Shown here in pieces: positions 39,823-41,292 of a stretch of DNA of 64,000 nucleotides. Source of the stretch: Chthoniobacteraceae bacterium (lineage in GTDB: Bacteria; Verrucomicrobiota; Verrucomicrobiia; Chthoniobacterales; Chthoniobacteraceae); the NCBI GenBank assembly GCA_028293625.1, contig JAQGOL010000010.1, positions 62,001-126,000 on the forward strand, given 5' to 3'. A program made the position numbers and the translations under genes. Position 1 is the first letter of the stretch. Each line of letters opens with the position of its first letter. Under the pieces are notes generated by a model. That model had not been told where the DNA came from and searched no databases. It saw nothing but the letters and a program-made list of their open reading frames with translations.

Positions 39823-40536
39823 ATGACAGCTGGAAATTCTCCCTCTATGCCCGAAGAAATTCCTCCCGCCCCGTCCGAGTCGTCCCACGACATCGCAAAA
39901 AGCGAAACCATTCGTATCACGCTGCCGCCTAAAAACGAGCAGCCGGCGATGAAGCGGGAAACTGTCCGCATCAACGTACCGAGTCAGACGGAACCGACGG
40001 GCTCATCGCTTCCCAAACCTCCCGGATCGATGCCGCCGCCACCTTCGGCACCAATGCCTCCGGCCCCTTCTCGTCTTTTTGTTCCCCCGCCTCCCGGCAG
40101 CGCCCCAACGCCTCCCGGCGCCCCTTCCCTTCCTTCGATCAAACCAGGCGGCGCACCGATGCCTCCCAAGCCGCCATCCCTTGGCGCAAAACCGACCGTG
40201 CCACTCAAGCCAGCGCCGCTGAGCGCCGGCCCAACCCCTTCTCCGGAAGGGGCTCCACGCGCCGCGGCGCCGAAAAAGGAGACCGCCCGCATCACGCTCC
40301 CGGCGGAAAGTGCCAAGCAGCCTTTGCCCCGGGCTACCGTTAAAATGCAGCAGACCCAGCCGCTGGTGAGCCGTCCGGCTCCTGCGATGAGTTCTGCGGC
40401 TATCTCCCAGTCGCTTCCGGCCGCTGAGGCGGAAGCTGATTCAGCGATTAACATCCTCGCCATTGCGGCCTTGGTCATTTCGATCCTCGCATTTGCCATC
40501 GCTTTCCTTGCATTCAACGGCGCTTCGCCCCTTTAG
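39823..40536 (+). CDS. Proline-rich repeat protein with a C-terminal membrane anchor
   Basis: 237 residues from ATG 39823. The short repeat (K/R/S)ET(I/V/A)RI(T/N)(L/V)P occurs at residues 27-35, 45-53 and 152-160, with a weaker copy RATVKM at 170-175. Between the second and third copies lies a proline-rich linker (about 62-150). The C-terminus is a single hydrophobic helix (about 209-230, INILAIAALVISILAFAIAF). The N-terminal part is therefore probably cytoplasmic and disordered, tethered to the inner membrane by its tail. Function unknown: the repeats could be threonine phosphorylation sites or peptide ligands, but that is speculation. Thioredoxin starts 8 bp after the stop, so the two may be co-transcribed. 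Frames running further upstream overlap the epimerase and are not real. Confidence 0.65.
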   Translation: MTAGNSPSMPEEIPPAPSESSHDIAKSETIRITLPPKNEQPAMKRETVRINVPSQTEPTGSSLPKPPGSMPPPPSAPMPPAPSRLFVPPPPGSAPTPPGAPSLPSIKPGGAPMPPKPPSLGAKPTVPLKPAPLSAGPTPSPEGAPRAAAPKKETARITLPAESAKQPLPRATVKMQQTQPLVSRPAPAMSSAAISQSLPAAEAEADSAINILAIAALVISILAFAIAFLAFNGASPL

Positions 40537-40544
40537 TTTTTATC

Positions 40545-40877
40545 ATGGCCAGCCAAAACGTTCTCACCATCACCGACGCTAATTTCGAAGACGAAGTTTT
40601 GAAGTCGACTGTTCCCGTTCTGCTCGATTTTTGGGCTCCGTGGTGCGGTCCGTGCCGTTTGATCGGTCCGATCATTGATGAGATGGCTGATGAGCGTGTT
40701 GGCAAAGCCAAGGTTGGAAAAATTAACGTCGATGAAAACCAGCAGCTTGCTGCCCGTTTTCGCGTCTCTTCAATTCCCATCCTGCTCTTTCTTCAAAACG
40801 GCGAAGTCAAAGATCAAGTGCTCGGCGCAGGCACAAGCAAAGCCTCCCTTCTGGCCAAGCTCGACGCGCTGAGTTAG
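40545..40877 (+). CDS. trxA: Thioredoxin
   Basis: 110 residues, typical thioredoxin length. The redox motif is WCGPC with Cys34 and Cys37, in the normal context LLDFWAPWCGPCRLIGP. The cis-proline segment is VSSIPILLFLQNGE. It reduces disulfides in cytoplasmic proteins, using electrons from thioredoxin reductase, which is not in this window. It lies 8 bp after the repeat protein and ends 19 bp before a strong hairpin terminator, so it likely closes that transcript. Confidence 0.97.
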   Translation: MASQNVLTITDANFEDEVLKSTVPVLLDFWAPWCGPCRLIGPIIDEMADERVGKAKVGKINVDENQQLAARFRVSSIPILLFLQNGEVKDQVLGAGTSKASLLAKLDALS

Positions 40878-40896: not shown

Positions 40897-40934
40897 AAAA
40901 CGCCGCGCATCTTCTGAGAGGTGCGCGGCGTTTT
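40897..40934. terminator. Strong hairpin between trxA and ppnP, likely bidirectional
   Basis: Stem of about 14 pairs, 40897-40910 with 40921-40934 (AAAACGCCGCGCAT pairing with its near-complement, one G-U pair), around a 10-base loop. The outer AAAA/TTTT pairs give a T-run on either strand, so it can end both trxA (plus) and ppnP (minus). Confidence 0.85.
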
Positions 40935-40965: not shown

Positions 40966-41292
40966 TTAATCGAGGAACGAACAGATATACTCGCAAATTT
41001 CCTCCCCAACCTCGATGGCAAATCCGCTCTGGGCAGATACTTCAAACGCCTCGCCGGCCCCATAGACACGCGTTTCCGATTCGCCATCGAGAATCACCGA
41101 AGCCTTGCCCGCGACGATTTCCATTCGCTCAGCTTTCTCGGTGCCAAAATGGAACTTGCCCGGAAAGATCAGTCCCAGAGTTCGTTTGCTGCCGTCTTTG
41201 AAAAGAAGCGTATGGCTGACAACTTTGCCCTCAAAATAGACATTGGCTTTTGCAATCGCGGTAACGTTTTCAAACTGTGTGGGAATGGCCAT
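40966..41292 (-). CDS. ppnP: Pyrimidine/purine nucleoside phosphorylase PpnP (DUF1255)
   Basis: 108 residues of a small cupin-like fold, the usual DUF1255 length. Family-typical segments are KRTLGLIFPGKFHFGT and ERMEIVAGKASVILDGE, followed by YGAGEAFEVSAQSGFAIEV. E. coli PpnP (YaiE) phosphorolyses several nucleosides to a base and ribose 1-phosphate. It is transcribed leftward toward the bidirectional terminator. Alone on its strand; the 245 bp between its start and treZ should contain divergent promoters. Confidence 0.85.
   Translation of the reverse strand: MAIPTQFENVTAIAKANVYFEGKVVSHTLLFKDGSKRTLGLIFPGKFHFGTEKAERMEIVAGKASVILDGESETRVYGAGEAFEVSAQSGFAIEVGEEICEYICSFLD

Follow-up and report, generated by a model that had tools for sequence, protein, structure and literature searches.

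A predicted phosphothreonine scaffold encoded upstream of trxA and its candidate FHA-domain reader in Verrucomicrobiota

The gene that precedes trxA in the stretch of DNA analysed here (the window, 64,000 nucleotides of a Chthoniobacteraceae genome) encodes a disordered protein with a repeated threonine motif and a C-terminal membrane helix. This protein, which we call X, represents a large undescribed family of Verrucomicrobiota, and its motifs track across the phylum a second protein, FHA-TA, that carries an FHA domain and a C-terminal membrane helix of its own. As read from the sequences, this pattern points to an undescribed docking pair controlled by phosphorylation. We consider it fairly likely that X is a phosphothreonine scaffold read by the tail-anchored FHA-TA after the action of a Hanks-type kinase.

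Results

The reading frame at 39823-40536 (plus strand), to which the original prediction had assigned the protein, is confirmed as open, but its start is probably 24 nt downstream, since the N-termini of the relatives mostly read M-A/S/P-D/E-E and align with the ATG at 39847 (Table 1); X then has 229 amino acids instead of 237. The proline-rich, disordered chain with one C-terminal helix that had been described from the letters was borne out: the protein contains 23% proline and no cysteine, and in the AF2 model (mean pLDDT 58) the helix at residues 199-225 is the sole secondary structure, the remainder being disordered. The C-terminal helices of both X and FHA-TA were assigned from model and hydropathy, and no signal peptide was seen in the N-termini, as judged by eye. 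X of the window had no match over any curated cut-off in Pfam and NCBIfam, and it was matched once only in the window genome. The inverted repeat behind trxA sits between this gene and a convergent minus-strand ORF (40966-41292); its loop of 12 and its arms were read by eye, and it is absent from the list of the automatic scan. The window genome has a second thioredoxin (G000:C31:392844-393149), 50% identical to that of the window.

Table 1. Features of X and its surroundings in the window
Feature	Position	Strand	Basis or remark
Gene X, disordered Pro-rich protein with C-terminal membrane helix	39847..40536	+	ORF, alignment of relatives, AF2
Motif 1, KSETIRITLP	39898..39927	+	Thr codon 39907-39909; T21 invariant in 28/28 aligned proteins
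Motif 2, KRETVRINVP	39952..39981	+	T39 kept in at least 90% of 28 aligned proteins
Relaxed motif TVPL (T-[IVA]-x-[ILVM]) inside GAKPTVPLKP	40195..40206	+	
Motif 3, KKETARITLP	40273..40302	+	T146 invariant in 28/28 aligned proteins
Motif 4 (weak copy) with conserved tail, LPRATVKMQQTQPL	40324..40365	+	T164 invariant in 28/28
Single C-terminal membrane helix of X, residues 199-225	40441..40521	+	AF2 model
trxA, thioredoxin, 8 nt downstream of X	40545..40877	+	Profile match (PF00085, E 6.2e-28)
13-bp perfect inverted repeat, arms 40897-40909 / 40922-40934, terminator-like	40897..40934	.	By eye

The three clear copies and the weak one (LPRATVKMQQTQPL) of the repeat were recovered as first noted. 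We defined a strict motif by K/R within three residues before the T, R/K at +2 and I/V/L/M at +3, and X of the window carries four copies. A repeat arisen by chance might be suspected in a low-complexity protein so rich in proline; however, four copies were never reached in 20,000 shuffled versions of the sequence, and the idea is refuted by the alignment of 28 X proteins, where the four threonines are fully (T21, T146 and T164) or nearly (T39) invariant, so that we give it practically no credence. Nor is the gene confined to one species: X was matched in 31 of the 57 genomes of the order Chthoniobacterales, the window's own included, and the 29 named relative loci are mostly Chthoniobacter, Chthoniobacteraceae and Spartobacteria records, with three labelled Prosthecobacter. 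A profile search, which is insensitive for this protein, found X in 24 of 387 genomes of the phylum only. An ORF with a C-terminal helix lay directly upstream of trxA in 77 of 100 fetched regions, three of these ORFs being unrelated (L165, L169 and L244), and KSETARIDLP, RKTIRIKRP and similar sequences represent the motif in other classes.

The spacing to trxA noted at the outset was exact, with 8 nt to its start codon, and the gene order recurs: the first search gave 30 loci, 27 of which have trxA adjoining X, as do 26 of the 29 named loci, the six others being contig ends (L026, L046, L067) or showing no trxA in the fetched flank (L020, L036, L059). Since trxA is the sole neighbour of X that is shared across families among the loci examined, the link is old; as the original prediction proposed, the two genes may share a transcript. 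Upstream of X the genes vary. An epimerase-like gene is found in the window's family, and in L062-L065 the genes before X, all in one direction, presumably correspond to ftsK, rodZ and rimO (names from sequence). In G045 (L140:9457-14396), X is away from trxA, beside ORFs that we take to resemble PilB/GspE and PilC/GspF. In family f17 (L164, L235, L239) a tail-anchored protein of 88-89 aa overlaps the trxA start by 2-3 nt, which suggests translational coupling. A minimal X is encoded in L142 (84-aa ORF) and L147 (79-aa ORF), still upstream of trxA; it is reduced largely to the membrane helix, a short linker and a single motif that lacks Thr. A role of X as redox substrate of TrxA was rejected for the window, where X has no cysteine and thus is not a dithiol substrate of thioredoxin.

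These data bear on whether X might be primarily a membrane adaptor that localises the co-translated TrxA, with the threonine motifs as a secondary regulatory layer. The singular conservation of the trxA neighbour speaks for such a role, as do the protein with a C-terminal helix that still precedes trxA in 19 of the scored genomes, all lacking FHA-TA and a motif array, and the overlapped trxA start (gap -2 or -3) in the three f17 genomes. Against it, X lies away from trxA in G044, G045, G327 and the f18 loci L307, L310, L311 and L312, there are 13 FHA-TA-less genomes without such a protein upstream of trxA, and cysteine is lacking in X of the window and in 49 of the 76 X of genomes with strong FHA-TA matches. 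As the pair of X and trxA persists where the motifs are gone, the link to trxA and the motif are separable. We regard a primary adaptor role as unlikely; it would, in any case, be compatible with X acting as a phosphothreonine scaffold.

The residue preferences of the motif were obtained from 73 deduplicated X proteins (76 entries with strong FHA-TA matches), unfiltered for motif presence. The centre of the strict motif was T in 327 cases and S in 2, in proteins whose total content is 1774 T and 1589 S. Position +3 was I in 229, V in 42, L in 39 and M in 17 of 357 cases (I/L/V/M 327/357, I/V/L 310/357), I/L/V/M making up 19% of all residues. Where the genome lacks FHA-TA (18 X proteins), the strict pattern had T in three cases and S in five. 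A relaxed motif, T-[I/V/A]-x-[I/L/V/M], defined post hoc after family f15 had been seen, is less strict for threonine (413 T to 80 S). The pattern K[KR]ETxRI was also sought in the DNA of eight genomes as a possible genome-wide targeting tag and was discarded as such, with a chance-like 2 of 13 matches outside X. The review PMC8786283 states an absolute requirement of FHA domains for pT and gives pTxx[I/L/V] and pTxx[E/D] as ligand motifs. The X motif agrees with the former in two respects, threonine instead of serine and an aliphatic +3, and would match an FHA ligand if phosphorylated. The original prediction had suggested a docking or phosphorylation site in the ET motif, and this gains indirect support from the strictness for threonine, the aliphatic +3 and the covariation with FHA proteins described below.

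FHA domains occur in 55 of the 57 genomes of the order. A recurrent type of about 170 aa, here FHA-TA, consists of the FHA domain, a linker with RPxxFxNASPF and a C-terminal helix; full-length matches at E<=4.7e-47 were obtained in 40 of these 57 genomes, and its model was matched at E<=1e-5 in 310 of 387 phylum genomes, other FHA proteins included. The FHA-TA of the window genome (L177:7742-8251; G000:C9:187741-188250) scores 69.9 bits with PF00498, for a gathering threshold of 20.7. Arg27, Ser41 and Asn63, which we take to be the conserved pThr pocket positions of the FHA domain, are present in all 57 FHA-TA-type proteins outside genus g4, a count that leaves out four aligned proteins of other types (L297, L299, L301, L302). 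In the AF2 model an FHA fold is joined by a single helix (block means of 93-95 for residues 1-90), and its nearest folds by Foldseek are MDC1 (3umz) at the top, with GarA, OdhI and FhaA among the nearest. The linker is invariant as P..F...SP in 23 aligned proteins, reading RPxxFxNASPF in this order and as a SISPFG-type in other classes, and on this alignment appears to be a second conserved linear motif.

In G046 the genes for X, trxA, a carA-like protein and FHA-TA follow one another in one direction with short gaps, and G036 has the same four genes on a 5.3-kb contig; among the loci compared, FHA-TA was not seen near X outside two genomes of family f2. The neighbours of FHA-TA differ by class. 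What is presumably a carA-like gene directly precedes it in 15 of 21 loci compared, L138 included; an obg-like gene beside it is common to three of eight f15 loci; and a prepilin-like gene (GFTLVE-type N-terminus) lies beside it in 21 of the 26 loci L201-L226 (four of the window's class), with an ftsH-like gene after FHA-TA in two genomes instead (loci L315-L332 were also compared). Since the neighbours of X and of FHA-TA vary, the former upstream and the latter by class, we do not claim a shared pathway from them.

X was scored in 110 genomes, of which, by best E value, 76 had a strong FHA-TA match (E<=1e-19), nine a weak one (above that value), six a pocket-dead protein (g4) and 19 none. For many of the strong genomes outside the order, full length is not established among the matches listed, and that of G345 is partial. 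At least two strict motifs were present in X of 65/76 strong, 5/9 weak, 3/6 pocket-dead and 0/19 FHA-TA-less genomes, in regions that were chosen knowing the FHA-TA status and not at random. With the relaxed motif, the corresponding figures were 76/76, 9/9, 6/6 and 0/19. Fisher's test of strong against none gave p 1.2e-12 for strict motifs, the genomes not being independent; by groups, the median was at least two strict motifs in 34 of 36 groups bearing FHA-TA vs 0 of 9 lacking it.

The scoring drew on 100 trxA regions, of which four had no trxA match (L118, L139, L140, L166) and 19 no upstream ORF with a C-terminal helix. Ten of the latter are FHA-TA-less (L141, L144, L149, L230, L236, L237, L238, L240, L241, L242) and nine bear FHA-TA (L112, L137, L143, L150, L156, L159, L160, L171, L175); in L137, X is present and was missed by the filter, its end overlapping trxA, L143 and L150 are contig ends, and L156 is another trx. 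Left out were L165, L169 and L244 (FHA-TA-less, with the unrelated upstream protein), the duplicate L161, L168 (G180, with a weak FHA match that is not tail-anchored and an X with no motifs) and L172 (X split by a frameshift).

Family f15, which also carries both genes, departs from the strict pattern. It accounts for all 11 strong genomes in which X has less than two strict motifs, the motifs there being of the TIPL, TVAL or TIKL kind; the family keeps its FHA-TA matches, yet 15 of its 16 scored members have 0-1 strict motifs (G427 has three). It fits the pairing only with the relaxed, post hoc motif. In G235 and G122, two members with a weak score, a true FHA-TA may be absent although 6-7 relaxed motifs are kept. 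With the insensitive search for X, no X was found in G238, G268, G131, G031 or four genomes of family f47, all of which have an FHA-TA-type match, that of G268 having been seen in part only. In family f18, where FHA-TA matches are present, G119 and G241 showed no X upstream of the trxA that was read; elsewhere in G119, G241, G250 and G285 there are X-like genes, whose products carry 1-2 strict motifs and 8-12 relaxed ones, and no trxA was found within the fetched flanks of these genes (L307, L310, L311, L312).

A tree of TrxA from 101 genomes called for at least six changes of FHA-TA status and gave three supported independent pairs, of which 3/3 were concordant for the relaxed motif and two to three for the strict one, with none discordant; with only three such pairs, the sign test is not significant (p=0.25). 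This outcome leaves room for shared ancestry, by which the motifs and FHA-TA would both be ancestral and both have been lost in a few divergent lineages without any direct interaction. However, not every genome lacking FHA-TA is small (G223 4.9 Mb, G388 5.4 Mb, G039 3.8 Mb, G048 5.2 Mb), G039 and G048 keep three other FHA matches each, and in genus g4 both partners decay in place, all of which makes us doubt that common descent accounts for the association.

The decay in g4, a genus of the window's family, affects the pocket Arg, Ser and Asn in 7/7 FHA-TA proteins: Arg is changed to Ser, Ser to Ala, and STNG is gone. Two g4 proteins (L153, L280) were taken from their first ATG onwards and might be truncated. 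X has 1-3 strict motifs in the six g4 genomes vs 4-9 in 25 other scored members of the family, and its first threonine is Ser in G020, Met in G034 and kept in G012 and G030, so some of its threonine motifs survive despite the dead pocket. Two f5 genomes without FHA-TA have an X of 79-84 aa reading KKGVVRIPVPP and KKGMARIKVPR, in which only the threonine is replaced (V, M) and KK, R and I are retained. In G042, where no FHA match was found at all, X is 107 aa long and reads KKETVRPLPP, though NETARL is kept, and in G052, its family sister, X and FHA-TA are both intact; in family f13, without FHA-TA, ATIKL is kept in one genome and VAIKL stands in another. On the whole, X and FHA-TA probably work together through phosphothreonine.

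Docking might also be independent of phosphorylation, the KETxRIxLP segment adding as a short beta-strand to the sheet of a partner, with threonine retained for packing and FHA-TA covarying only as part of one larger system. Positions +1, +3 and +5 often hold hydrophobic residues (in a set filtered for proteins with at least one motif) and no kinase gene was seen beside X in the loci compared, both as expected from strand addition. This, however, predicts neither the loss of the g4 pocket alongside motif erosion nor, in the FHA-TA-less f5, the replacement of threonine within an otherwise retained motif, and we find it distinctly improbable.

Protein kinase domains (PF00069, E<=1e-20) were matched in 356 of 387 phylum genomes, and at least six are encoded in the window genome (6 of 31 candidates scored). 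Since 9 of the 17 FHA-TA-less entries of the phylum draw have PF00069 at that threshold, yet lack motif arrays, kinases alone do not explain the covariation.

Discussion

In the mechanism that we propose, X would be a multivalent docking scaffold at the cytoplasmic face of the membrane, where its C-terminal helix would hold it. Its disordered N-terminal chain would offer up to 10 motifs K-x-x-T-x-[RK]-[I/L/V/M] (mostly the relaxed T-[I/V/A]-x-[I/L/V/M] in f15), whose threonines a Hanks-type Ser/Thr kinase may phosphorylate. FHA-TA would then read the phosphothreonines at the membrane, and several FHA-TA molecules might cluster on one X.

Some known FHA proteins resemble parts of this putative system. 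The FHA-TA profile matches mycobacterial FhaA (Rv0020c) in FHA sequence and fold. FhaA with MviN/Rv3910 (PDB 3oun) is an FHA reader acting at the membrane, as proposed for FHA-TA; it is, however, not known to be a tail-anchored protein of about 170 aa, and its ligand is the intracellular pseudokinase domain of MviN/Rv3910, whereas X is a disordered chain with multiple motifs. Of the proteins with solved structures, GarA (6i2q) matches the FHA-TA profile best in sequence, and OdhI (8p5x) also matches. Both are soluble metabolic inhibitors with an intramolecular pThr switch, and they differ from FHA-TA, which has a membrane helix. MDC1, whose FHA domain is the top structural neighbour, reads pThr (complexes 3uot and 3va4) but is a eukaryotic DNA-damage protein.

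The nearest known working analogue would be the reading of TssL pThr14 by Fha in the type VI secretion system (T6SS) of Agrobacterium, where PpkA phosphorylates Thr14 of TssL and Fha then binds (PMC3953482). Both cases have a phosphothreonine of an inner-membrane protein read by an FHA protein after the action of a Ser/Thr kinase (predicted for X), and they differ in that the former has one site on a secretion component and X has several motifs on a disordered tail-anchored chain, with a separate tail-anchored reader. Judged by sequence signatures only, the neighbourhoods of X in the loci compared showed no T6SS genes. One PVC signature protein, with a length from about 53 to more than 80 aa (PMC3444138), differs from X. 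In the open-licence PMC literature no paper joining FHA domain, Verrucomicrobia and phosphothreonine was found; of those retrieved there for FHA domain, Verrucomicrobia and kinase, none appears from its extract to concern X or FHA-TA, and PMC12691757 concerns human TIFA.

Conclusions

On a wider view, which we hold to be about evenly balanced, X and its dedicated FHA-TA would form a phosphothreonine hub of Verrucomicrobiota throughout the phylum, at the inner face of the membrane, co-evolving motif by pocket and possibly assembling phosphorylation-dependent membrane clusters. What is known of the targets of Hanks-type kinases in bacteria comes mostly from a small number of groups or systems such as mycobacteria, streptococci and T6SS. 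The pair described here would give Verrucomicrobiota a predicted substrate-reader module with exact candidate peptides, and it suggests that a conserved low-complexity ORF may be assigned a partner by pairing the loss of a short linear motif with the loss of the reader's pocket.
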